A stretch of DNA of 11,310 nt from Candidatus Atribacteria bacterium. Lineage in GTDB: Bacteria; Atribacterota; JALVIU01. Location of the stretch: the NCBI GenBank assembly GCA_027028665.1, contig JALVIU010000217.1:1-11310 (forward strand), written 5' to 3'. The notes beneath the pieces are model-generated. The model was given only the letters and a program-made list of their open reading frames with translations. It was not told the origin of the DNA and did no database searches. Positions within the stretch are counted from its first letter, which is position 1. Every line of letters starts with the position of its first letter. Below, piece by piece: positions 1-10,973 of this stretch. Both the position numbers and the translations under genes were made by a program.

Positions 1-557
1 ACTATATCATCTCCATAAACCTCTTGTATTAGTATATCTTTCATAATCCCTTTTTTCAGGTCTATAAACTTTGCATACAATATTCGGTCTACATCTCCTA
101 TATGCACTTTCCCTATAAAATCCCTTTTACTAATACTTATAAGTCCAAGATTTCTCATCATATTTGCTCTCTGAATTGTAGCCTTGGGGACAACATATTC
201 TCCCCCCAATAGCATTAAAAAAAACGGAATAAGAGAAAAAATAATTACAGATAAAGTAATACGAAAAAGACCAATTCCTGCGGCCCTAAAAGCTATTATT
301 TCTCCATTTTCAAAAAATTTCCCAAATGAAATAAGTATACCCAAAAGGAGGGCCATGGGTAAAGTTAATACAATAATATCAGGAAGACCTAAAAGAAAAA
401 GTTTTATCGTCTGGAAAAATGTAGTTTCCCTTTTTATGAAGAGCTTTGCCACTTCAAATAGTAACCCTCCTGAAGCTATAAGAAGTGTAAAGATCATTAT
501 ACCTGATATAAATGTAGGGAATACAGTCTTTATAATGTATCTATCTAATAATTTCAT
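1..557 (-). CDS. LptF/LptG family LPS export permease, N-terminal part (cut by window edge)
   Basis: This is the first 185 residues of an inner-membrane permease of the LptB2FG complex, which extracts LPS from the inner membrane and drives it into the LptC-LptA bridge. The start is the ATG at 557, which overlaps the lptB stop as ATGA. There is no good ribosome binding site, so translation probably depends on coupling to lptB. Visible are a short amphipathic start (MKLLDRYI), a membrane segment at about residues 11-34, a hydrophobic stretch at about 51-79, the family signature ENGEIIAFRAAGI at 83-95, a third membrane segment at about 99-118, and then the beginning of the periplasmic beta-jellyroll domain. 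The reading frame stays open to base 1. LptF and LptG share this architecture and cannot be told apart from this half, so no symbol is given. A partner may follow to the left of the window. Confidence 0.93.
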   Translation of the reverse strand, partial: MKLLDRYIIKTVFPTFISGIMIFTLLIASGGLLFEVAKLFIKRETTFFQTIKLFLLGLPDIIVLTLPMALLLGILISFGKFFENGEIIAFRAAGIGLFRITLSVIIFSLIPFFLMLLGGEYVVPKATIQRANMMRNLGLISISKRDFIGKVHIGDVDRILYAKFIDLKKGIMKDILIQEVYGDDI

Positions 558-1288
558 AGAAGTACGAAATCTTTTCCAAGGAAGTGTTTCCTCACCTTCT
601 CCTCATTTGCAATAACCTCTGGAGTTCCTGAAGCTATAATATTGCCATCATGCATAATATAGGCCCTATCTGTAATATTCAATGTCTCCCGAACATTATG
701 ATCTGTAATAAGGACTCCTATATTTTTCTCTTCTCGAAGATATCTTATAATCTCCTTTATTTCAGTAATAGTAATCGGGTCAATCCCGGTAAAAGGCTCA
801 TCAAGGAGGATAAAAGAGGGATCTATTGCAAGAGTTCTTGCTATCTCTACTCTTCTCCTTTCACCTCCAGAAAGTGCATATCCCTTATTACTTGCAAGGT
901 GTGTAATAGAAAATTCTTCCAATAGGGCATATGCCTTCTCCTTTCTCTCCCTATAAGATAAAGGTAGAAATTCTAAGACTAATAATAGATTTTCTAAAAC
1001 AGTCAGTTTTCTAAACACAGAGGGTTCTTGAGAGAGATAGCCTATACCCATCCTTGCCCTTCTATACATAGGTACAGAGGTAATATCCTGACCATTTAAA
1101 TATACCTTTCCCCTATCAGGCTTTACAAATCCAACTATCATATAGAAAGTAGTTGTTTTACCTGCACCATTTGCGCCCAATAATCCTACTATCTCTCCCT
1201 TATTTATACCTATATCTATCTCATTTACAACCCTTCTTGTCTTATATGTTTTTACAAGACCTCTCGCGAATATTCCACTCTCTATCAT
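554..1288 (-). CDS. lptB: LptB, LPS export ABC transporter ATP-binding protein
   Basis: This is the cytoplasmic ATPase of the LptB2FG exporter, which powers LPS extraction from the inner membrane. At 244 residues it matches the usual LptB length of about 240. Every ABC motif is intact: Walker A GANGAGKT at residues 38-45, Q-loop Q87 (YLSQEPSVFRKLTV, a stretch typical of LptB), signature LSGGERRR at 139-146, Walker B FILLDEP at 159-165, and switch histidine H197 in ITDHNVRETL. The ATG at 1288 is preceded by GAGGAG three bases upstream, which is close spacing. It lies 10 bases after the lptA stop, and its own stop overlaps the start of the permease gene. The LptB-specific Q-loop and H-loop wording, together with lptA next door, separate it from LivF-type branched-chain amino acid ATPases. 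Confidence 0.97.
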   Translation of the reverse strand: MIESGIFARGLVKTYKTRRVVNEIDIGINKGEIVGLLGANGAGKTTTFYMIVGFVKPDRGKVYLNGQDITSVPMYRRARMGIGYLSQEPSVFRKLTVLENLLLVLEFLPLSYRERKEKAYALLEEFSITHLASNKGYALSGGERRRVEIARTLAIDPSFILLDEPFTGIDPITITEIKEIIRYLREEKNIGVLITDHNVRETLNITDRAYIMHDGNIIASGTPEVIANEEKVRKHFLGKDFVLL

Positions 1289-1298
1289 ATGCTCCTCA

Positions 1299-1949
1299 CT
1301 ACTTATTTACAATAACCTTTACCTTTCCCTTAGTAATAATCTTTTTAGTAGCGAAATCCACTATTATGTTATCTGCAATAATAGTATTTTTTCCATCATT
1401 TATTTTCACATATTTTGAAAGCATTATCTCTTTTTTAGATGGCAAATATTTTATCTCCTGGGCCTCTCCCTTTAGATTATCATATACAAAACTACATCCA
1501 TCTTTTGCATAGATCTCATCTATCCCCTTTTTATCTTCTTTAAAAGTGAATTTTACGGAAAAGGTCTTTCCCTTAATCTGCCACTTCTTATCTCCTTCTT
1601 TCCCTTTCGCCTCTGTACCTTTTTCTAAAAGGGCAATACCCTTTTTAAAATCCATATCTACACTTAGGGCAGTTATACTTATATCTTTACTTTCTATCTT
1701 TATTCCACCCTTTGCCGAAAGACTTTGATTTTTTGTATCAAAGATTACGTCTTTTACAGTAATTACAAAATCCTTACCCTTTAATACAAGTTCTCCCTCA
1801 GAAACTATATTCCCTGTGTTAATATCATATGTAAAATCTGCACCCTCTATCTCAAAAGAAGAAAGTATATCTTCATCTGCCCAAATATTCATAGAAAAAA
1901 GAAATATAACAGCTATTGCTATGTAAAAGATCTTACTAAATTTATTCAT
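1299..1949 (-). CDS. lptA: LptA/OstA-like periplasmic LPS transport protein
   Basis: This is the periplasmic bridge protein that carries LPS from LptC to LptD at the outer membrane. It has 216 residues and a clear Sec signal peptide: a basic start, a hydrophobic core at about 8-20, and a likely cleavage after NIWA at residue 24. The mature part is a run of alternating beta strands rich in Lys, Asp and Glu, as in the OstA/LptA jellyroll. Repeating units of the type 'G.I.SEGELVLKGKDF.I...' and 'KGGIKIESKDI.I.A' are visible. It starts at the ATG at 1949, which overlaps the lptC stop by 8 bases, with a perfect AGGAGG 8 bases upstream. Beta-jellyroll proteins diverge fast, so the call rests on the fold pattern, the signal peptide and its position between lptC and lptB. 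Confidence 0.88.
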   Translation of the reverse strand: MNKFSKIFYIAIAVIFLFSMNIWADEDILSSFEIEGADFTYDINTGNIVSEGELVLKGKDFVITVKDVIFDTKNQSLSAKGGIKIESKDISITALSVDMDFKKGIALLEKGTEAKGKEGDKKWQIKGKTFSVKFTFKEDKKGIDEIYAKDGCSFVYDNLKGEAQEIKYLPSKKEIMLSKYVKINDGKNTIIADNIIVDFATKKIITKGKVKVIVNK

Positions 1950-2466
1950 CCTTCTCCCCTCCTATCATAATTTTAGCCAAATTTGGTAAAAATACAATCC
2001 TTTTTCCAGAAAGAGAAACTTTATTATTAATATATATTATACCATGGAATATAGTATATATATTCTCTTTAGCATTATATATTATCTTATCTCCCTTTAT
2101 TGTCTTCTCCATATACTCTATACTTGGATTACCTGTGGCAGTAAAAGAATAGTTCTTTTTTGAAAGTTCTATCTTATCCGCATAGAAAAAAAACTTTTCT
2201 CCTTTTTTTGTATTTCCTTCACCTTTTACAAAAAAAAGAATAACATCATTACCTTTATCTTCCATACTCTTGGCAGTAAGTCCCCATACCTTTTTCCCAT
2301 CCTTTAGTTGACTAAAGGAGACATTCTCTAAATTCCCTACACCGCTTTCTTTTTTGGGAGAAGGAGACCCTCTTTGAGAAACAGGATGAGGAGAAGAAGA
2401 TAAAAATACTATTATTACAGTAATTAGTATTACAAAAAATGATATATAAATTATTCCTTTTTTCAT
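1942..2466 (-). CDS. lptC: LptC, LPS export bitopic periplasmic protein
   Basis: This is the inner-membrane-anchored member of the Lpt bridge, which takes LPS from LptB2FG and passes it to LptA. It has 174 residues, close to the E. coli length of about 190. An N-terminal membrane anchor spans about residues 4-23 without an evident cleavage site. A Ser/Pro-rich linker follows (about 24-44), then a periplasmic beta-jellyroll. The segment SFSQLKDGKKVWGLTAKSME matches the conserved opening of the LptC domain, where a Trp-x-Leu-x-Ala core begins the first strands. Later strands include SFTATGNPSIEY and VSLSGKRIVF. The ATG at 2466 has an AAAGG 7 bases upstream and follows the preceding stop by 17 bases, the longest gap in the window. 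It is less conserved than LptB, but its position directly before lptA supports the call. Confidence 0.88.
   Translation of the reverse strand: MKKGIIYISFFVILITVIIVFLSSSPHPVSQRGSPSPKKESGVGNLENVSFSQLKDGKKVWGLTAKSMEDKGNDVILFFVKGEGNTKKGEKFFFYADKIELSKKNYSFTATGNPSIEYMEKTIKGDKIIYNAKENIYTIFHGIIYINNKVSLSGKRIVFLPNLAKIMIGGEKDE
1958..1963 (-). promoter_or_regulatory. Ribosome binding site of lptA
   Basis: A full consensus AGGAGG lies 8 bases before the lptA ATG, inside the coding end of lptC. It supports the ATG at 1949 as the true lptA start. Together with the 8-base overlap it suggests that lptA can be initiated both independently and by coupling. Confidence 0.8.
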
Positions 2467-2483
2467 ATAAATACCTTTTATTT

Positions 2484-3638
2484 TCAGATTGACCGTAATA
2501 TGTATTTGACTATAAGAATTATACCATTTTTTCCCACTGTTTCTTTACCCTTTATGGATAAAAACTTAAGATATTCTTTATCAAATGCAACCTTAATAAT
2601 TCTCTTGGCGATCTCTTTTTCATCAAAATATGGAAAATATATGAGATTTTCTCTCAAAAGAGGCTTTTGTCTTTTTGTAAACCTTTCTGGAGTAGCATGT
2701 GTTTTGGGTAGAGGAAATGCAATTACTGGTTTTCCAAGGGCCACTGATTGTTCGTTTGCAGTACCTGAAAGCCCTACAACCACATGGGACCGGGAGAGCA
2801 CATCAGCAAAGATATTTGTATAAAATGGAATTTCTACATTGGTCTCCATATTATAAAGACTACCCTTTACAGGTAAATCATTATGTAAAATAAACCTCCA
2901 CTTATTATTAAATATGTGAGGAAAATCAGAAAAATGTGTCAGAGAAGAGAGATGAAAATAAAAATCAAAAGAGTTTCCTCTACCTAATGTCACTACCTCA
3001 TCTATTATTTTTAGCATATTAGAGATATTTCTAACTATATCTTTTCTACTCCCTGGCAAAAACAATATACCTCTCTTTTTGAGTTTTTTTCCTTTCTTTT
3101 CCCTTACATCACCTATAACAGGATTTCCAAGATAAATAGCTTCTATTCCTCTTTTCTTCAATAAATAAAAGGTCTCTGGGTCCCGGACAAATATCTTCTG
3201 GGTGGCCTTCTTTAACAAAAAGTATTCAAGATTTGAAAAATCACCTATCCTGGCAGACCTTGAGGTCAAGATAAGATAGGAATCACGCTTCCCAGAGATA
3301 TATAACAAAAAAACAGGATAAAGATCACCTACAATTATAGAAATACTATTATCTTTAACAATTTTTGTTATGGAACTTACTATATGGAAGGGTTCTGAGA
3401 TTAAGCCAGATCTTACATCATTTAAAAATGAACGAAAACCTTCTCTTAAAGAAAGCCCTCCACTTGGTAACTCTTTTCCTTTATAATATACTTTTATGCC
3501 TTTTTTTAAAAAAAACCTTCCTGTTCCTACCAGAGGAAATACTCCAATATTCTTTACATGTCTTCTCAACTCTTTAATCAAGGAATAAGCTATTGCATCT
3601 TCTCCATGACCATTTGTAAATACAATTATATTATTCAT
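2484..3638 (-). CDS. Lipid-A-disaccharide synthase-related GT-B protein (TIGR03492-like)
   Basis: This is a predicted GT-B fold protein of 384 residues, related to LpxB but clearly a different family. It resembles the 'lipid-A-disaccharide synthase-related' group that I remember mainly from cyanobacteria and Deinococcus (TIGR03492), whose function is not established. Visible signatures are NGHGEDAIA near the N-terminus, FPLVGTGR, the diagnostic ELPSGGLSLREG near residues 56-67, VGDLYP at 103-108, YLGNPV at 169-174, FLPGSRKD at the start of the C-terminal Rossmann domain (about 194-200), and GLSGTANEQSVALGKPV at about 289-305, where LpxB binds its UDP-sugar. There is no signal peptide or membrane span, so it is probably cytoplasmic or membrane-associated. 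The ATG at 3638 is preferred because it gives the same 8-base ATGAATAA overlap seen elsewhere in the operon. A TTG at 3644 would add two residues. Substrate and product are unknown; glycosylation of a lipid A precursor is inferred from context. Confidence 0.85.
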   Translation of the reverse strand: MNNIIVFTNGHGEDAIAYSLIKELRRHVKNIGVFPLVGTGRFFLKKGIKVYYKGKELPSGGLSLREGFRSFLNDVRSGLISEPFHIVSSITKIVKDNSISIIVGDLYPVFLLYISGKRDSYLILTSRSARIGDFSNLEYFLLKKATQKIFVRDPETFYLLKKRGIEAIYLGNPVIGDVREKKGKKLKKRGILFLPGSRKDIVRNISNMLKIIDEVVTLGRGNSFDFYFHLSSLTHFSDFPHIFNNKWRFILHNDLPVKGSLYNMETNVEIPFYTNIFADVLSRSHVVVGLSGTANEQSVALGKPVIAFPLPKTHATPERFTKRQKPLLRENLIYFPYFDEKEIAKRIIKVAFDKEYLKFLSIKGKETVGKNGIILIVKYILRSI

Positions 3639-5310
3639 ATGCAAAGAACCTATCTACCTCATGAAATTCTATAGGCTTTATCTTTCCATTTTTTACTAGA
3701 AAAACCCTATCTGCCATCTCAATTTCCTCTCTATAGTGAGTAATAAATATGGTAGTACGGCCTTTCATTATCTTACTTAAAAACAGCTGGAACTCCTTTC
3801 TTGAGGAAGGATCTAAAGAACTTGTGGGCTCATCCAATAGTAACACTTTGGGATCAAGGATAAGGGTCCGCGCAAGGGAGATTCTATGCCTTTCTCCACC
3901 TGAAAGTTTTGTTCCCTTCTCTCCGATTTTAGTATTTATCCCATCTGGTAATTTTTTAAAAATTTCCTTAAAACCAAGAAAATCTAATATACTATCCAGT
4001 TTTTCTTTTGATACACTATTTACTCCATATACAATATTTTCATATATAGTGCCAGGAAAGAGGTGTGTCTCCTGAAGTACAATTCCTATAGATTTTCTTA
4101 AAAAATCAATATTAATATCTTTAAGGTTTATATTATCAATCATTATTTTTCCTGATGTAGGATCGAAAAGTCTTAGCAAAAGATATAGAAATGTACTTTT
4201 CCCTTCGCCATTTGGCCCAATGATCGCTATCTTCTCTCCTGGTTTTATGCTTAAATTAAGACCTGAAAATACAAATTTTTTTCCATAAGAAAAAGAAACA
4301 TCTATAAAATCTATACGTCCGTCTATTTTTTTTGGTATTATATCTTTTTTAGAAGGAGCTACTATTTGACTTACATCCAGAAGCTCAAACAGCCTCTCAA
4401 ATGCCCCTTGAAGTTTCTTTAGAGAATAGTAAGTATTGCTTAACCTTGAAAGAGGTGAAGATGCAAGCACAAGATATCCAAGAAAGGCAATCAATTCCCC
4501 TGATGTCATATTACCTCCGATAACCTCTTTTCCCCCAAACCAAAGTACAAATGTAAGACCAATAGAAAGAGAAAATTCCACCAGAGGAGGAAGTATAGAC
4601 TTCAATTTACTATCCTTTATTGAAAGCGCCATTGCCTCATCTGCAAGCTGATTAAACTTTATCTTTTCTTTTTCTTGAGTGGAAAAGGTAAATATTACTG
4701 ATATTCCAGAGAGGGAATCAGATATATGTGAAGTAAGATCTGCCATTTTTTCTTGAATTCCCTTTGATAGCTTTCTTATGATTTTCCCTATGTAATTTAT
4801 AATAAATCCTATAAGGGGCAGAAGTACAAAAGAAAGAATAGCCATTTTAAAATTGATTATGAATAAAAATGTTATAGAGCCTACAACTATCAAAAAGTCT
4901 AAGATGCCATTAAAAAAAGAGAGAGAAAGAACAGATTGAATTAAATTTAGATCATTTATTATATATGAAGTAATATCTCCAGAGTGCTTTTCTTTAAAAT
5001 AACTAAATGGAAGTGCGATAACATGTGCATAGAGTTCTTTCTTAAGTTTATTGGATACAGATAGGGCGACTTTCTGAGAAAAATAATTCTGCACATAGGC
5101 AAATATACCTTTTAAAAGAAAGAGAATAGGAATAGATATAGATATTAGATTTAATATATAAAAATTCTTCTGTATAAGTACCTTATCTATAAGATTTTTT
5201 ACAATAAAAGGAATCAAAAGATTTGTGCCTGCCACTATAATAGAAGAAAAGAGAGAAAGAAATATATGGCTCTTATAAGGTAAAAAATAAGAAAAAATCC
5301 GTTTATTCAT
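3631..5310 (-). CDS. msbA: MsbA-type lipid A exporter, ABC half-transporter
   Basis: This is a homodimeric ABC exporter with fused membrane and ATPase domains, expected to flip lipid A or LPS from the inner to the outer leaflet of the inner membrane. At 559 residues it is slightly shorter than E. coli MsbA (582). The membrane domain covers about residues 1-310, with hydrophobic segments near 15-37, 50-72, 130-150, 155-175, 245-258 and 271-285. The ATPase domain follows: Walker A GPNGEGKST at 365-373, Q-loop Q413, signature LSGGERHR at 469-476, Walker B VLLLDEPTSSLD at 489-500, and H525. The ATG at 5310 overlaps the previous gene by 8 bases and has only a weak ribosome binding site. The ABC exporter assignment is certain. 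The lipid A substrate is inferred from its place among lpx and lpt genes, since MsbA cannot be separated from multidrug exporters by sequence alone. Confidence 0.9.
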   Translation of the reverse strand: MNKRIFSYFLPYKSHIFLSLFSSIIVAGTNLLIPFIVKNLIDKVLIQKNFYILNLISISIPILFLLKGIFAYVQNYFSQKVALSVSNKLKKELYAHVIALPFSYFKEKHSGDITSYIINDLNLIQSVLSLSFFNGILDFLIVVGSITFLFIINFKMAILSFVLLPLIGFIINYIGKIIRKLSKGIQEKMADLTSHISDSLSGISVIFTFSTQEKEKIKFNQLADEAMALSIKDSKLKSILPPLVEFSLSIGLTFVLWFGGKEVIGGNMTSGELIAFLGYLVLASSPLSRLSNTYYSLKKLQGAFERLFELLDVSQIVAPSKKDIIPKKIDGRIDFIDVSFSYGKKFVFSGLNLSIKPGEKIAIIGPNGEGKSTFLYLLLRLFDPTSGKIMIDNINLKDINIDFLRKSIGIVLQETHLFPGTIYENIVYGVNSVSKEKLDSILDFLGFKEIFKKLPDGINTKIGEKGTKLSGGERHRISLARTLILDPKVLLLDEPTSSLDPSSRKEFQLFLSKIMKGRTTIFITHYREEIEMADRVFLVKNGKIKPIEFHEVDRFFAYE

Positions 5311-6487
5311 CTTTGAGTATCATTTCCTTTAGTTTAAATTTTCTAAAGACGTATTTGTTTTTAAAGTCTATGAGAACTCTTTTCATGTTATAAAGCTTCT
5401 TTTTAGATAGAAATTCTTTTTCTATAGTAACTGCTACGCTTGAAGATGTAAGTACACCTCTTATCTCTTGCACAATCTTTCTATCCTCTATTATATTAGG
5501 AAGAGCAAAATATGGCCTCCTTTTTAACACATAAGCTACAATCTTTCTTTTAAAAATTGGCCCAATGTATGGAAAGACATCTATAAAATTAATAATACCA
5601 TTTAAGGGGATTATTTCGAGCTTATTAAGTGGTGATACTACAAACATAGGAACACCATAGTATGTTAAGGTCAGGGTAGATGTACCTGGTGTAGTAATAG
5701 CAAAATCTAAAATTCCTATATCTTCATGTTTAGTCTTAATAGATATATACAATCCCTCTTTAGATAAAATATAAAATCCATTATCTTTGGCTACTATTTT
5801 TCCCAAAGAATAATCTAGTACATTATATGTAGGCCCTTTTAAAAGTACATTCTCTAAGAAATCAAAAGTTATAAAAGGAGAGAGAAAAAGATATGAATCA
5901 ATGTCTATAAAAGAAGAAAGATTCTCTAAAATCTTTATAAAAAATGGAAGTAGATGTTCAAACTGAATTTTTCTACTTCCTGGAAATATTCCCACTTTAT
6001 ATTTTTTATTTGCTTTTCCTTTTTTATAAATCCCTTTCCTTTTTTTCTTTTTTCTATCAAAAGATAAGTTTCCTATAAATAAAGACTTATAAAGAGGAAT
6101 ATTCCTTTTCGCCTTTTTAGAATATGGAAGTAAAAATAGTTTAACAAAAGGTTTAAAAGAAAAAAAAGTAGTATAGGAATATAGGCTAACACCTAATAAA
6201 GTAGAAAAAATAGTAGGATAAAAAAGGTCTCCCCCTAAGTGAAATATTATATCTATTTTAATATGAATAAGATATTTATATAAACTAATGAATTTTCTTA
6301 GTCTAAAGATTTCGTTAAAAAGAGAAGAATCTCTTGCAACATCATATTCGCTCCCTGACGAAAATTGACAAGGAGTAAGAATTAAGATTATATTAGGATC
6401 ATTAAAACTATTTTTTAAAAACAAGGCAAAAGGAATAGCTCTTTCGTACACTTCTCCAGGGCCATTCGCAAAAATTGCTATATTCAT
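5303..6487 (-). CDS. Divergent LpxB-like GT-B glycosyltransferase of unknown substrate
   Basis: This 394-residue protein shares the LpxB fold but is not LpxB, which lies directly upstream. It opens with FANGPGEVYERAIPF in place of the LpxB GE-SGD/E loop. It then has LTPCQFSSGSEYDVAR (38-52), a stretch I associate with cyanobacterial LpxB-like proteins. FHLGGDLFYP follows at 82-91. VGIFPGSRK (165-173) starts the C-terminal Rossmann half, and ITTPGTSTLTLTYYGVP (264-280) aligns with the LpxB SSGTATLEAAILGVP sugar-nucleotide loop. FALPNII at 327-333 echoes LpxB IGLPNLV, but the following PELVQ is replaced. A very basic linker of mostly Lys and Arg at about 146-163 joins the two halves and could contact acidic phospholipid. 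The ATG at 6487 overlaps the lpxB stop as ATGA, with no strong ribosome binding site. A sugar transferase acting on the LpxB product is a fair guess, not a demonstrated role. Confidence 0.82.
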   Translation of the reverse strand: MNIAIFANGPGEVYERAIPFALFLKNSFNDPNIILILTPCQFSSGSEYDVARDSSLFNEIFRLRKFISLYKYLIHIKIDIIFHLGGDLFYPTIFSTLLGVSLYSYTTFFSFKPFVKLFLLPYSKKAKRNIPLYKSLFIGNLSFDRKKKKRKGIYKKGKANKKYKVGIFPGSRKIQFEHLLPFFIKILENLSSFIDIDSYLFLSPFITFDFLENVLLKGPTYNVLDYSLGKIVAKDNGFYILSKEGLYISIKTKHEDIGILDFAITTPGTSTLTLTYYGVPMFVVSPLNKLEIIPLNGIINFIDVFPYIGPIFKRKIVAYVLKRRPYFALPNIIEDRKIVQEIRGVLTSSSVAVTIEKEFLSKKKLYNMKRVLIDFKNKYVFRKFKLKEMILKDE

Positions 6488-7602
6488 GTCAACATAGATA
6501 CCAGCTCATCTCCAATTCTTTCCATAACTCCTTCTTCGCCAAGCATTTCCCTTATACGTATAAGCTTATCTACCATTCGAGCTGTCACTTTTTGGTCTAC
6601 AATAAACTTTATCATTAAATATTCCAAGGAATAAGGATTAAAATCCCATTGAACAAGTTCAGGTATAATAAGTTTTCCATATACTAAATTTGGTAACCCA
6701 ATAAAATTAGATTTTACCATAAACTTTGCAAAAAGCCAATTTAGAAAACTCATTCTGTAAAAAATAATCTCTGGCACACCCAATATAGCTGCTTCAAGGG
6801 TTGCTGTCCCAGAAGATGTAAGGATAAAATCAGAAACCTTCATTACTTCATATGCATGATCAGTAACTATTTTATAAGGAAAACTATATTCACTTAGTTC
6901 TTCTTCCAGGATATATTCAAATTCTGAACTGGGAGAGGCTATTAAGTAAGTCACATCGGAGAATTTACTGCTTATTTTTTCCATTGTCTTTCCTAATATG
7001 GGAAAATGATTACGAATCTCTGAAACCCTGCTTCCAGGAAATATCCCTATGACTCTATTTGATGTAAATTGTTCCTGTAATCTGGCAATGTAATCTTCAT
7101 TTACTCTTATTATGTCTATAAGGGGATGCCCTAAAAACTTAACATTAATTTTATTTTTTCTATAAAAATCCTCTTCAAAAGGAAGTCCTACAATTATTTT
7201 GCTTACCAGTCTTAATGTTTCTACCCTCTTTTTCCCCCAAGCCCATACCTGAGGAGGAAATAGATAGGCAGTTTTTATTTTCAATTTTTTTGCATAAGAG
7301 ATGAGTCTAAGATTTATACCGGGACTATCTATAAATATTATAAGGTCTGGTTTCTCGGTTTTTATAGATTTCTTCAATTTATTATATAAGCCATAAATAG
7401 AGAAAAAGTTTTTAAAAATATCCGTAAATCCTATAGTTGCATAAGGAGATATATCTCCTATAACTCTTATATCATGACCTTCAAGGCGAGAACTTCCTAT
7501 CGCTATAAATTCCACATTATTAAGTTTTTTTTGAATTATCCTTTTTAAATGAATAGCATAGTTTTCACCGGATAATTCTCCTGTAGAAAAGAGGATCTTC
7601 AT
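6484..7602 (-). CDS. lpxB: LpxB, lipid-A-disaccharide synthase
   Basis: This is a GT19 enzyme that joins 2,3-diacylglucosamine 1-phosphate (lipid X) to UDP-2,3-diacylglucosamine, giving the beta-1,6 disaccharide of lipid A with release of UDP. It is a peripheral inner-membrane protein. At 372 residues it is near the usual length of about 380. Visible motifs are the N-terminal STGELSGEN loop at 6-14 (GE-SGD in E. coli, here with Glu), IIFIDSPGINLRL at 88-100, PPQVWAWGKKR at 116-126, FLGHPLID at 156-163, IGIFPGSRVSEI at 185-196, TSSGTATLEAAILGVPEI at 262-279, and IGLPNLV...IPELVQ at 301-318. The ATG at 7602 has AAGGAG six bases upstream and lies 15 bases after the lpxI stop. It is the only one of the three LpxB-like proteins here that carries the full canonical motif set. 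Confidence 0.96.
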   Translation of the reverse strand: MKILFSTGELSGENYAIHLKRIIQKKLNNVEFIAIGSSRLEGHDIRVIGDISPYATIGFTDIFKNFFSIYGLYNKLKKSIKTEKPDLIIFIDSPGINLRLISYAKKLKIKTAYLFPPQVWAWGKKRVETLRLVSKIIVGLPFEEDFYRKNKINVKFLGHPLIDIIRVNEDYIARLQEQFTSNRVIGIFPGSRVSEIRNHFPILGKTMEKISSKFSDVTYLIASPSSEFEYILEEELSEYSFPYKIVTDHAYEVMKVSDFILTSSGTATLEAAILGVPEIIFYRMSFLNWLFAKFMVKSNFIGLPNLVYGKLIIPELVQWDFNPYSLEYLMIKFIVDQKVTARMVDKLIRIREMLGEEGVMERIGDELVSMLT

Positions 7603-7617: not shown

Positions 7618-8403
7618 CTATATAGAAAAACCCACAACTTTAATATCATTTTCATTTGCAACCCTTATGGCCTCTGTCTGTTCAAGAAAAAGAGTAGTAT
7701 CTTTTTCGATTCCTATTATTCTAATATTTGATTCTATTGCAACATTTATAGTTTCAAGTCCTATAGCTGGTATCTCTAAATCAAAACCTTGTCCTGTCCT
7801 CCCAGCTTTTATCAATACTCCTTTTTCTATCCCATAATGTTTTGTCCTTCTCATACATTCATTTGTACCTTCTATAGCTTCTACGGCATATACTATTTTA
7901 TCTTTTACTATAATTGTCTGTCCTATCTCCATATCTGCCAAGACTTTTATTTTACTTTTTGCAAAATTTATATCCTCCCATTCTTTCTCTGTAGGCCCTT
8001 TCTTTGTGTATATCTTCTCTTGTGTAATATATGGAAATAAATACCTCTTAAGATCCAGCAGAGAAATTCCTTGACTCTCTAGAAGACCTTTTAAAGCAAT
8101 TAATAGATTTATATCACCCTTTTCCAAAGAGGCATATGATTCACTTAGAGATATGTGAAATTTTTCCAATATCCAGGTTTTATCAACCTTTCCAACAAAT
8201 GCTATATGGGTTACGCCTTCTCTTCTTAATAGCTCCAAAAACTCTTCTACACTGGATATGGAAAAAGAAAGTGTATCCGCAAAGGTATCAGCTTTTCTTT
8301 TACCAGATAGATCTATAATTATTGGGTCTAATCCATCGTCCTTCAAGGCTTGAAAGATCAAATCTACAATGCTTCCATACCCTGATACTAATGCCACCTT
8401 CAT
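7618..8403 (-). CDS. lpxI: LpxI, UDP-2,3-diacylglucosamine pyrophosphatase
   Basis: This enzyme hydrolyses UDP-2,3-diacylglucosamine to lipid X plus UMP, the step done by LpxH in E. coli and by LpxG in Chlamydia. The 261-residue length agrees with Caulobacter-type LpxI (DUF1009). The N-terminal half begins with MKVALVSGYGSIVDLIFQAL and has an alpha/beta layout. The C-terminal half carries the family block VYAVEAIEGTNECMRR at about 171-186, then VLIKAGRTGQGFDLEIPAIG at about 196-215, where the acidic residue around D208 fits the metal-dependent active site region of the family. The block ends with NIRIIGIE and IKVVGFS. The ATG at 8403 overlaps the lpxA stop as ATGA, with GAGGGG about nine bases upstream. 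Its position between lpxA and lpxB is the usual one in LpxI-bearing operons. Confidence 0.95.
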   Translation of the reverse strand: MKVALVSGYGSIVDLIFQALKDDGLDPIIIDLSGKRKADTFADTLSFSISSVEEFLELLRREGVTHIAFVGKVDKTWILEKFHISLSESYASLEKGDINLLIALKGLLESQGISLLDLKRYLFPYITQEKIYTKKGPTEKEWEDINFAKSKIKVLADMEIGQTIIVKDKIVYAVEAIEGTNECMRRTKHYGIEKGVLIKAGRTGQGFDLEIPAIGLETINVAIESNIRIIGIEKDTTLFLEQTEAIRVANENDIKVVGFSI

Positions 8404-9170
8404 CTTATAATACCCCTCGAAGATCTATTAAAAAATTCTATAAATGCATCAATCTCCTCATAATTAACAAACTCTTTGCTTAATATTTCTCTTATCTCTT
8501 TTAAAGTGTTAGACTTATCATATAAAAGTTTAAATACTTTTTCTATTCTCTGAATCTGTTCTTCCGTAAACCCTGCTCTCTTAAGGCCAACTATATTTAT
8601 ATTAAACATCTTAGGAGGGGTACCTGCTATAAGTAAATATGGGGGTACATCCTTTGAAATCTTTGAATATCCTTCTATCATTGTTAATTTACCGATCTTT
8701 ACAAACTGATGCACACCTACATACCCACTTAAAAAAGCCCTATCATCTACTTCTACATACCCAGAAAGAGCTGAATAATTCGCTATTGTAACCCCATTTC
8801 CCAATTGACAATTATGAGCAATATGGGCATAAGCCATTATATAACAATCTTCCCCGATTTTTGTGGAATTTCTCTCTCCTGTCGCCTTATGAATAGTTAC
8901 ATACTCACGAATAATAGTATTTTTACCTATATAAACCTTTGAATCTTCACCTTTATAGCTTCTATCCTGAGGTGGAGTTCCTATCACCGAGCCCTTTCCT
9001 ATATATACGTTCTCTTTTATTTCTGTAACACCTGTAATATATACTGCGGGACCAATCTTTACATTATCACCTATAGTTACTCCTTTATCTATTACTGTAT
9101 ATGGACCAATATCCACATTATTTCCAATTATTGCCTTATCAGAAATAACAACAGTAGGATGGATAGACAT
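8400..9170 (-). CDS. lpxA: LpxA, UDP-N-acetylglucosamine O-acyltransferase
   Basis: This enzyme carries out the first step of lipid A synthesis, moving a 3-hydroxyacyl chain from ACP to O-3 of UDP-GlcNAc. It is a cytoplasmic homotrimer. The 256 residues are almost all left-handed beta-helix hexapeptide repeats (IGNNVD, IGDNVK, IGKGSV, IGEDCY, LGNGVT and so on), followed by a helical C-terminus ending in FFNRSSRGIIR, as in E. coli. The catalytic base is the second His of AYAHIAHNC (residue 119), and the substrate loop IGTPPQDRSYKGED is intact. The position matching E. coli G173, which sets acyl length, appears to be Gly (LLIAGTPP). The ATG at 9170 is preferred: it forms TGATG with the fabZ stop and has GAGGTG at suitable spacing. 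A GTG at 9173 would add one residue. Confidence 0.96.
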   Translation of the reverse strand: MSIHPTVVISDKAIIGNNVDIGPYTVIDKGVTIGDNVKIGPAVYITGVTEIKENVYIGKGSVIGTPPQDRSYKGEDSKVYIGKNTIIREYVTIHKATGERNSTKIGEDCYIMAYAHIAHNCQLGNGVTIANYSALSGYVEVDDRAFLSGYVGVHQFVKIGKLTMIEGYSKISKDVPPYLLIAGTPPKMFNINIVGLKRAGFTEEQIQRIEKVFKLLYDKSNTLKEIREILSKEFVNYEEIDAFIEFFNRSSRGIIR

Positions 9171-9601
9171 CACTCACCTCTTTCCCCTAAGCTAAACATA
9201 ATTTCTGCCTCAGCTACTACCTCCTCATTTACAAAAGCCGTGGTCTTTATTTTTCCTACTGTACCTCTAAATCTTAAAAGTTTTGCTTCTATTTCAAGTT
9301 TATCTCCAGGAAAAACAGGTTTTCTGAATCTAGCTTTATCTATTCCTATAAGGTATGCAAGCTTATCTTTATATTCTGGTTTTAAAAGCACCAAAAAAGC
9401 ACCGGTTTGCGCCATTGCTTCTATTAAAAGGACGCCTGGCATTACAGGATTTTCTGGAAAATGCCCTTGAAAATATGGTTCATTAAACGATACACATTTA
9501 TAGCCTTTTACCCTATCATCTGAAACTTCTTCTACCCTATCTACTAAAAGAAAAGGGTATCTATGAGGTAATGTACTTAGAATTTCCTTTGGCTCCAACA
9601 T
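9170..9601 (-). CDS. fabZ: FabZ, 3-hydroxyacyl-ACP dehydratase
   Basis: This hot-dog-fold enzyme dehydrates 3-hydroxyacyl-ACP to trans-2-enoyl-ACP in fatty acid elongation. It competes with LpxA and LpxD for the same 3-hydroxyacyl-ACP pool, which explains its place in lpx operons. At 143 residues it has the usual length. The sequence shows LPHRYPFLLVDRV at 11-23 and the active-site stretch GHFPENPVMPGVLLIEAMAQTGA at 46-68, with catalytic His47 and Glu61. The ATG at 9601 lies just 2 bases after the lpxC stop. A perfect AGGAGG sits inside the last codons of lpxC, 9 bases upstream. In Bacteroidetes LpxC and FabZ are fused; here they are separate proteins. A missing Leu/Glu signature of FabA-type isomerases supports FabZ rather than FabA. 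Confidence 0.96.
   Translation of the reverse strand: MLEPKEILSTLPHRYPFLLVDRVEEVSDDRVKGYKCVSFNEPYFQGHFPENPVMPGVLLIEAMAQTGAFLVLLKPEYKDKLAYLIGIDKARFRKPVFPGDKLEIEAKLLRFRGTVGKIKTTAFVNEEVVAEAEIMFSLGERGE
9175..9180 (-). promoter_or_regulatory. Ribosome binding site deciding the lpxA start
   Basis: GAGGTG lies in the last codons of fabZ. Its GAGG core is six bases before the ATG at 9170 but only three before the GTG at 9173. The spacing therefore favours the ATG, which overlaps the fabZ stop as TGATG. Confidence 0.65.
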
Positions 9602-9603
9602 CT

Positions 9604-10422
9604 TTATATACCTCCTACACCTTTTAACTTTCTTACAAGTTCCAAGTGTAATTTATGACCTGCCTTTATAAGAATAAAATCTCCTATTAAAAACTTTCCT
9701 AAAAGTGAAATGTCTCCTAAAAAATCTACTATTTTATGCTTTACAAATTCTCGCTCAAGAGACATTTTTCCCAAAATCCTATTCCCCTTCACTACAATGG
9801 CATTTTCTAAATTTCCGCCTAAAGAAAGACCACTCTTTTTAAGGTTTTCTATGTCTTCATATAAAACAAAGGTTTTTGCCCTTGATATATCCTCTATAAA
9901 TACTCTCTCATCAAACAAAAAATCGTAGCATTGAGACCCTATGTATGTATTAGGGTAGTCTATTAAATATCTTATCCTAAAGGACGAAGAAGGTAGCGCT
10001 AAAGCTATCTTATCATTATTCTTTATATATATTGGATTTTCTATTTTATAAATTGCTCTCTCCCTTTGTTGTTCTACTATTCCTGCTTTCTTTATCAACT
10101 CTATAAAAGGAGCTGCACTTCCATCAAGAATAGGTATTTCATTTTTATATTTTATTATTACATTTGTAATACCCATGGCATATAAAGCAGATAATAAATG
10201 TTCGGGAGTAAGAACAAAAGCCTTATTAGATCTCAATGTAATAGCTCTTCTATCATCTACTACATTTTCAATTGTAGCCTCTACCCTATATCCTGTATCA
10301 AGATCATCAAATACTATTCCTGTCCCCTCATCTGCAGGATAAAGTATTATCTGACCTTTCTTTTTACTATGAAGACCTATTCCTTCTGCGGAAACAATAC
10401 TTCCTATCGTTCTTTCCTTCAT
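9604..10422 (-). CDS. lpxC: LpxC, UDP-3-O-acyl-N-acetylglucosamine deacetylase
   Basis: This is the zinc-dependent deacetylase that commits UDP-3-O-acyl-GlcNAc to lipid A synthesis. It has 272 residues, shorter than E. coli LpxC (305) and close to Aquifex LpxC. Both repeated LpxC domains are present. Motifs are GIGLHS at 14-19, TPEHLLSALYAMGI at 72-85 with Zn ligand His75 and catalytic Glu74, IPILDGSAAPFIEL at 96-109, SRAKTFVLYEDIENLKKSGLS at 180-200 with the GLSLGGN loop, and REFVKHKIVDFLGD at 224-237 with Zn ligands His229 and Asp233. KAGHKLH at 253-259 carries the conserved His256. The E. coli C-terminal extension, which FtsH uses for turnover, appears to be lacking, so control of LpxC level may differ. 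The ATG at 10422 overlaps the methyltransferase stop as ATGA, with GAGG 8 bases upstream. Confidence 0.96.
   Translation of the reverse strand: MKERTIGSIVSAEGIGLHSKKKGQIILYPADEGTGIVFDDLDTGYRVEATIENVVDDRRAITLRSNKAFVLTPEHLLSALYAMGITNVIIKYKNEIPILDGSAAPFIELIKKAGIVEQQRERAIYKIENPIYIKNNDKIALALPSSSFRIRYLIDYPNTYIGSQCYDFLFDERVFIEDISRAKTFVLYEDIENLKKSGLSLGGNLENAIVVKGNRILGKMSLEREFVKHKIVDFLGDISLLGKFLIGDFILIKAGHKLHLELVRKLKGVGGI
9611..9616 (-). promoter_or_regulatory. Ribosome binding site of fabZ inside the lpxC 3' end
   Basis: A perfect AGGAGG is formed by the final codons of lpxC, 9 bases before the fabZ ATG at 9601. Ribosomes ending lpxC would uncover the fabZ start two bases downstream of the stop, keeping both products in step while leaving fabZ a strong site of its own. 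Confidence 0.8.
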
Positions 10423-10973
10423 TTCACCAACCTCAATGCAAACAATATAATAATCACCATTTCTACGAGAAAGGTGCTTTTTTCATTTTTAATTGCTGAA
10501 TAAAAATCAAACTCCTTTATACGTTTATATGGCCTAATCTTAGGAATAATTCTTCGTACATGTTTTTTATAGTGCATATAAGTATCCTTCCATTTTTTCT
10601 CTAAAAATTTTTCTTCTAAAGGAATAATAATGCTATACCCAAAAAAATACAAAGTAAAAAATAGTACATAACCCCACAATACATTGCTTATTACAGAAAT
10701 TCCCAGACCAATAAAAAAATTTCCTATATAAAGGGGATTTCTTACATAGGCATATGGTCCATAGGTTATAAGTTCTGGAGCATCTACACTGGATGTTCTA
10801 TATTTTTTTATATAACCAGCAGCCCATAGTCTTATAAGCTCTCCCACAGATAAAATAAAAGAGCCGATAATTAAAGAATGAAGGGTAGGAGAAGAAAAGA
10901 TATACACTACAAGAAAAAAGGGTATAGGTATGATTCCTCTCAAGTTAAAAATATAATTACTTAGTTTACTCAC
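10419..10973 (-). CDS. ICMT/PEMT-type membrane methyltransferase, possible lipid A phosphate methyltransferase
   Basis: This is a 184-residue integral membrane protein of the isoprenylcysteine carboxyl methyltransferase / phospholipid methyltransferase superfamily, which uses S-adenosylmethionine. Hydrophobic segments lie at about 12-28, 31-48, 83-119 (probably two spans) and 167-182. The SAM-binding signature is clear: [15 protein letters not shown] at 71-85, followed by the conserved Glu pair in [12 protein letters not shown] at about 117-128, then the Tyr...Tyr...Val-Arg-Arg-Ile-Ile-Pro ending. It starts with GTG at 10973, overlapping the lpxD stop by 8 bases, and its stop overlaps the lpxC start. 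Position inside the lpx run suggests a lipid A substrate. Leptospira LmtA, a member of this superfamily, methylates the lipid A 1-phosphate. That specific function is inferred here, and a role on phosphatidylethanolamine or another lipid is possible. Confidence 0.85.

Follow-up and report, generated by a model that had tools for sequence, protein, structure and literature searches.

Lipopolysaccharide (LPS) is often assumed to be built on Kdo-lipid A universally. Cyanobacterial LPS has been reported to be devoid of Kdo, heptose and lipid A phosphate (PMC4515613, PMC4390846), and some older cyanobacterial reports list Kdo. In the lipid A of marine Synechococcus, C4' is substituted with galacturonic acid and C6' with a chain of glucose (PMC4515613). 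Of the nine pathway genes, Opiyo et al. (2010, PMC3087551) credit Cyanobacteria with only lpxA, lpxC, lpxD and lpxB. In the searchable literature, we found no enzyme named for the addition of the first core sugar in cyanobacterial LPS. For the two enzymes with which we compare our proteins, the site residues of LpxB are given as E15, S17, D98, P198-R201, T277 and E281, and the catalytic base of WaaA is listed as E31 in a table (PMC5785501).

The window analyzed here, 11,310 nucleotides in length, is an entire contig (C217) from a bin of 1.79 Mb that comprises 413 contigs and is 90% complete. The recognized genes are all encoded on the minus strand in a single run and form a tight operon with the order lpxD-MT-lpxC-fabZ-lpxA-lpxI-lpxB-X-msbA-Y-lptC-lptA-lptB-lptFG, in which MT denotes a methyltransferase gene and X and Y are the two genes of interest (Table 1). 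The end of lpxB and the start of X share 4 bp, the end of X and the start of msbA share 8 bp, and Y begins within the end of msbA. Since these gene starts are nested in the ends of the preceding genes, lpxB, X, msbA and Y are likely to be co-expressed. A sequence-only reading of the window had proposed three LpxB-like open reading frames in one operon, two of them flanking msbA, and all three were found where it had placed them; its length of 384 residues for Y is correct if counted from an ATG located two codons inside the TTG start that yields 386 residues. The genome contains a single PF02684 match at E<=0.001, which is lpxB. The best NCBIfam match of the methyltransferase is LmtA, the lipid A 1-phosphate methyltransferase of Leptospira, at a score far below the cut-off, and a similar gene recurs in loci of diderm Bacillota, placed there between lpxA and lpxI. 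Methylation of a lipid A phosphate is a possible function of this predicted protein.

Table 1. Genes recognized in the window and evidence for their assignment
Feature	Position	Strand	Evidence
lpxD, C-terminal part, truncated at contig end	10966..11310	-	ORF and sequence
PEMT/ICMT-like methyltransferase	10419..10973	-	PF04191 45.6 bits; best NCBIfam match LmtA_Leptospira 53.7 bits (cut-off 325)
lpxC	9604..10422	-	PF03331 280 bits
fabZ	9170..9601	-	ORF and sequence; synteny
lpxA	8400..9173	-	ORF and sequence; synteny with lpxA of relatives
lpxI	7618..8403	-	PF06230 and PF17930
lpxB, canonical lipid-A-disaccharide synthase, 372 aa	6484..7602	-	TIGR00215 224.8 bits (cut-off 190.25); PF02684 266 bits
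X, NGPGEV protein, GT-B, 394 aa, candidate first core glycosyltransferase	5303..6487	-	PF02684 23.5 bits; Foldseek; tree
msbA-like lipid flippase, 559 aa	3631..5310	-	MsbA_rel 410 bits, MsbA_lipidA 390 bits; full length, both below curated cut-offs
Y, NGHGED protein, GT-B, TIGR03492-like, 384-386 aa	2484..3644	-	TIGR03492 201 bits; Foldseek
lptC-like	1942..2466	-	TIGR04409 25.4 bits, below cut-off
lptA-like	1299..1949	-	PF03968 35.9 bits
lptB	554..1288	-	TIGR04406 355 bits
lptF/G, partial, truncated at contig end	3..557	-	ORF and sequence

All three LpxB-like proteins contain a PGSR motif (residues 189-192 in LpxB, 169-172 in X and 197-200 in Y) and a second loop, which reads SGTATLEAAILGVP in LpxB, PGTSTLTLTYYGVP in X and SGTANEQSVALGKP in Y; the residue preceding its glycine is L or Y, not L or V as had been described. 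The N-terminal loops GELSGE (LpxB), NGPGEV (X) and NGHGED (Y) were all present. Profile-profile comparison gave E values of 7e-34 over 346 columns for X and LpxB, 3e-22 over 355 columns for Y and LpxB and 1e-17 over 263 columns for X and Y. These values are far beyond chance and bear out the proposed common kinship of the three proteins. The donor half (C-terminal domain) of X aligned with that of LpxB at E 1.6e-32 (hhalign), the acceptor half reached only about 1e-3, and acceptor-domain alignments alone were weak, with probabilities below 21%.

Only the first of the three is a canonical LpxB, as had been suggested. It passes its own models, TIGR00215 and PF02684 (LpxB is family GT19), and the other two stay below the TIGR00215 cut-off of 190.25 bits (X, no hit; Y, 12.9 bits). 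X matches no named family in NCBIfam, and its match to PF02684 is marginal and confined to residues 118-198. TIGR03492 was not hit by X from the window and was matched by X of other phyla in the donor region only (28-45 bits). Neither X nor Y hit PF04413, the N-terminal domain of Kdo transferase (WaaA/KdtA, GT30), at E<=1, and phmmer searches of both against PDB sequences returned nothing useful. LpxB and X were separated in a quick tree at 100 SH-aLRT, with X outside the LpxB clade. In the tree of X, sequences cluster according to phylum, with one clade each for Cyanobacteriota and Deinococcota, a pattern that suits long vertical descent; the tree was made by a quick method and has some long branches, including that of X from the window, the placement of which is thus unsure. 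The view that X is a mere divergent LpxB was discarded in light of its own clade, its different acceptor loop and the normal LpxB in the same genome.

AlphaFold models of X and Y (pLDDT 86 and 87) both adopt the GT-B fold that kinship with LpxB had led the sequence-only reading to expect. The top PDB match of X in Foldseek was E. coli LpxB, and the matches of Y included PglA, LpxB and A. aeolicus WaaA. With VIA-align, X and Y scored Z values of about 20-24 against MurG and UDP-GlcNAc 2-epimerases; for MurG 3s2u, Z was 21.7 with X (rmsd 3.2 over 308) and 22.9 with Y (rmsd 3.4 over 308). LpxB was not among the best 50 VIA-align matches of X. The C-terminal segment of LpxB is domain-swapped, so this absence is no argument against kinship. 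As the GT-B fold is common to transferases and UDP-GlcNAc 2-epimerases, the fold alone is no proof of a transferase, and such epimerases were indeed among the top VIA-align matches (Z about 22-24). Nevertheless, we regard it as very improbable that X and Y are nucleotide-sugar epimerases or other donor-making enzymes rather than transferases, because their profiles match LpxB, neither protein hit PF02350 and MurG scores equally by fold.

PGSR is conserved in both families, as is the GT in the second loop. The GE.SG acceptor loop, which holds E15 and S17 in E. coli and in which S11 and G12 are invariant in LpxB, is replaced by N[GS]PGE in the X family and by NG[HY]GE in the Y family; a pattern search recovered the former type of signature from almost all of the X sequences inspected. 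In profile alignments with weak statistics for this half, the GE that is invariant in X and Y coincides with that of WaaA, likewise invariant; this hints that the Glu of the N-x-x-GE loop may act as general base, as in WaaA. In the X-LpxB profile alignment, the GGD conserved in X is found two positions past the column of LpxB D98. Where LpxB uses Glu to hold the ribose, X from the window has Thr, which counts against the role proposed below for X, although most X sequences keep Glu.

For Y, the match to TIGR03492 (2-384/396) falls 18 bits short of the curated cut-off of 219.2, and the description of Y as a canonical TIGR03492 protein was softened because of this score. A match to polysaccharide pyruvyl transferase (PF04230, E 0.003) was set aside, being below cut-off and weaker than that to TIGR03492. 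A literature search on TIGR03492 and LpxB-like names, in a collection with few subscription journals and preprints, found no functional study. In the control genome of Deinobacterium chartae, TIGR03492 is matched over cut-off and LpxC gave no match, so Y may have another acceptor. Hence the assignment of Y is less certain than that of X.

The distribution of the two families was determined by profile searches. In 386 genomes, the X profile gave a clean separation, the sequences called as X scoring 154 bits or more and the next best matches, which were LpxB cross-matches, at most 86 bits. X was present in 47 of the 386 genomes, with most or all of the profile covered and a few sequences truncated by contig ends, and LpxC was present in all 47. 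Taking PF04413 over cut-off as WaaA, the 309 genomes with LpxC comprised 45 with X but no WaaA, 248 with WaaA but no X, 14 with neither and two with both; WaaA thus occurred in 2/47 genomes with X versus 248/262 without. The X genomes belong to 21 family codes, and f129 is the only family in which X and a full WaaA share a genome (two genomes); by tree position, it is placed with Synergistaceae. This exclusion is phylogenetically structured, X genomes being mostly non-proteobacterial diderms, and genome counts therefore overstate independence, although a switch is seen within one genus. For this reason the argument is based on the counts and not on the P values, in which genomes are treated as independent.

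A set of 68 LpxC-containing genomes was also searched for LpxK, KdsB and TIGR03492. WaaA over cut-off occurred in 38 of them and X and/or Y in 30, with no genome having both or neither. For X and WaaA taken singly, 27 genomes had X only, 38 WaaA only, three neither and none both; the figures for Y were 26 with Y only, 38 with WaaA only, four with neither and none with both. X and Y go together (both in 23 genomes, X only in four, Y only in three, neither in 38). LpxK was absent from all X or Y genomes of this set, and KdsB over cut-off was found in 0/27 X genomes and in none of the Y genomes. The genome of the window likewise lacks WaaA, LpxK and KdsB over cut-off (best KdsB score 24.3 bits, cut-off 155.2), as judged, like all absences here, from profile searches of draft bins, its own being 90% complete; the pattern recurs in the near-complete relatives G002 and G016 (one contig each, 97-98%). 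Among 50 named genomes fetched by X, an overlapping sample, 47 had no WaaA over cut-off and three had both; those without WaaA include metagenome-assembled genomes labelled Halanaerobiales, and published Halanaerobiales carry waaA and lpxK (PMC5007114, PMC2626281). X and Y thus occur almost only where WaaA is lacking, and this near-exclusion makes them strong candidates for starting the sugar core of a Kdo-free LPS.

Two further observations concern the window's phylum. Six of its genomes (G005, G015, G025, G029, G035 and G047) have KdsB over cut-off and no LpxC match, and CMP-Kdo may serve another glycan there. The listed genomes of families f2 and f5 gave no LpxC match, and these families thus seem either to have lost LPS genes or never to have acquired them.

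Within the same phylum, genus g13 displays what resembles a replacement series, drawn from draft assemblies of this one genus. In genome G034 (92% complete), the order is lpxB-X-msbA, and WaaA gave no match. In G049, an intact X is accompanied by a C-terminal WaaA fragment at a contig start beside an lpxL gene; the fragment alone has no Pfam hit and was identified by a weak PF04413 match and gene order. Finally, G022 carries a kdsB-waaA-lpxL cassette, and all that is left of X between lpxB and msbA is a 419 bp stretch containing in-frame stops (L188:479-896). The flanks of this remnant are 81-83% identical to G034 in a DNA alignment, and about 466 and 163 bp (approximately 630 bp) are missing. 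Such decay is expected if WaaA makes X dispensable.

The same series bears on the question of which enterobacterial enzyme is replaced. X or Y might substitute for LpxK instead of WaaA and cap the distal glucosamine at C4' with an acidic sugar (for example, galacturonic acid) where a 4'-phosphate would otherwise be, the core at C6' being begun by another enzyme. This would agree with the absence of LpxK from every X and Y genome tested and with the phosphate-free, galacturonic acid-bearing C4' of Synechococcus lipid A (PMC4515613). We consider it unlikely, as the switch in g13 involved kdsB-waaA-lpxL and LpxK was not found in the g13 genomes; loss of X upon arrival of WaaA without the kinase points to a WaaA role.

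We also compared gene neighborhoods in other lineages. Of 79 named loci, X is immediately preceded by lpxB in 28 and followed by msbA, at a distance of up to two genes, in 29; in 25, Y lies up to three genes beyond msbA. These loci are mainly from diderm Bacillota, together with Margulisbacteria/Saganbacteria/WOR-1 (X-msbA-Y) and Aerophobetes (X-msbA). In relatives from the window's own phylum, lpxI-lpxB-X-msbA is common and Y is located elsewhere in the loci read; Y adjoins msbA in diderm Bacillota and Margulisbacteria but not in the one cyanobacterium-like genome with positions compared. In Cyanobacteriota, X lies away from lpx genes and X and Y are scattered. Scatter away from lpx and msbA genes, which the sequence-only reading had named as evidence against itself, is thus seen in part for Y, and for X in Cyanobacteriota. 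In Vulcanimicrobiota, X is also remote from lpx genes and directly follows hldE1-hldE2 in 10/12 loci, gmhA usually being located upstream; the single fully annotated locus (L133:3660-11694) has two heptosyltransferase-like genes after X. This is an inner-core setting arrived at independently of lpxB. The Vulcanimicrobiota genomes combine this ADP-heptose core module with, mostly, a lack of WaaA. Two loci of X-bearing metagenome-assembled genomes have additional genes in the lpx operon, namely a DegT-type aminotransferase in the fabZ/lpxA interval (L062:6863-8002) and a nucleotidyltransferase in the lpxC/fabZ interval (L064:4727-5716), which hint at an amino-sugar lipid A or a dedicated donor sugar.

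Could the acceptor of X and Y be a different lipid or glycan, such as a glycolipid or an undecaprenyl-linked sugar, and could the two merely mark lineages that never had Kdo? The scatter of both genes in cyanobacteria, the position of X in Vulcanimicrobiota and the Deinobacterium chartae case would fit. We hold this to be distinctly unlikely, considering that LpxC accompanied X in all 47 X genomes of the 386 searched, that the order lpxB-X-msbA is common to several phyla, that the alternative neighbors in Vulcanimicrobiota are ADP-heptose genes and that a genome which acquired WaaA holds a decayed X. In Deinococcota, loci L107, L114, L124 and L137, and L203 which groups with them, have the order fabZ-lpxA-X-msbA and no lpxB in the flanks, and in G353 the X profile search gave no LpxB cross-match. 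Here X may stand in for LpxB, or lpxB may be located elsewhere. These cases, and the strongly LpxB-like C-terminal half, could mean that X serves as an additional lipid-A-disaccharide synthase or as a subunit accessory to LpxB. We judge this improbable, since the window genome has a normal LpxB, X has N[GS]PGE in place of the GE.SG loop, and it is X and not LpxB that disappears when WaaA is gained.

Taken together, we propose, with a probability of roughly 60%, that X, probably with Y, glycosylates the lipid A disaccharide before MsbA in a Kdo-free LPS pathway. X would be an inverting GT-B glycosyltransferase at the cytoplasmic face of the inner membrane, accepting the tetra-acyl lipid A disaccharide just made by LpxB. 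Its donor would be a nucleotide sugar, probably UDP-linked because the donor half is LpxB-like. In the position of WaaA, X would attach the initial core sugar and so occupy the place held in enterobacteria by LpxK and WaaA (Kdo addition); Y would most likely add a second sugar at the same stage, and the product would be flipped by MsbA and then exported by the Lpt machine. The Synechococcus lipid A, with its substituents at C4' and C6', would need two such activities. Fold, homology, operon order, the lack of WaaA, LpxK and KdsB in the window's own bin, the near-exclusion of WaaA by X and the decay of X in a WaaA-bearing relative are computational results; catalysis, donor, acceptor, linkage position and the use of the invariant Glu as general base are inferences. 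The sequence-only reading had suggested a core route built from LpxB relatives in place of WaaA. For X, this is well supported by the near-exclusion of WaaA, the lack of LpxK and KdsB where tested, the order lpxB-X-msbA in several lineages and the decay in a relative; for Y, the case is weaker, as it shares the phyletic pattern and adjoins msbA in diderm Bacillota and Margulisbacteria but lies elsewhere in other genomes.

On a wider scale, X, usually with Y, could constitute a second, Kdo-independent start of the LPS core that is perhaps ancestral in several non-proteobacterial diderm phyla and was displaced in some lineages by imported kdsB-waaA cassettes, a proposal whose chances we consider even. 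The phyla concerned may be Cyanobacteriota, Deinococcota, Vulcanimicrobiota, diderm Bacillota, Margulisbacteria, Aerophobetes and Synergistota, and genus g13 would then present the displacement half-finished. If X and Y do add the first core sugar, they would supply the missing step for a large share of diderm diversity and serve as a genome marker for Kdo-free LPS. The matter would bear on the nature of the ancestral outer-membrane glycolipid and could be tested with one protein and one lipid substrate.

In comparison with described systems, X and Y resemble LpxB in the GT-B fold, the PGSR donor loop, the GT..LE..GVP loop, an LPN...PEL stretch and their location in the same operon. They differ from it in the acceptor loop and in being separate families that co-occur with a normal LpxB in their own genome. 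WaaA/KdtA shares with them the predicted slot in the pathway, the alignment of its catalytic GE with their invariant GE and, for Y, a place in the Foldseek list; however, X and Y lack a PF04413 match, their donor half is LpxB-like and CMP-Kdo is not a likely donor, as X genomes have no KdsB. TIGR03492, 'lipid-A-disaccharide synthase-related protein' of unknown function, is matched by Y over its full length, though under the curated cut-off, whereas X matches it through the common donor domain only. The nearest described pathway is the Kdo-free route with four enzymes that Opiyo et al. (2010, PMC3087551) reported for Cyanobacteria and Dictyoglomi. It comprises lpxA, lpxC, lpxD and lpxB without lpxK and waaA, and in the portion of that work cited here no enzyme is named after LpxB. 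X occurs in cyanobacteria, and X and Y would fit the steps left vacant after LpxB. New here is the phyletic near-exclusion between WaaA and X or Y, and to the four-enzyme route the window adds lpxI, msbA, the lpt genes and the candidates X and Y.
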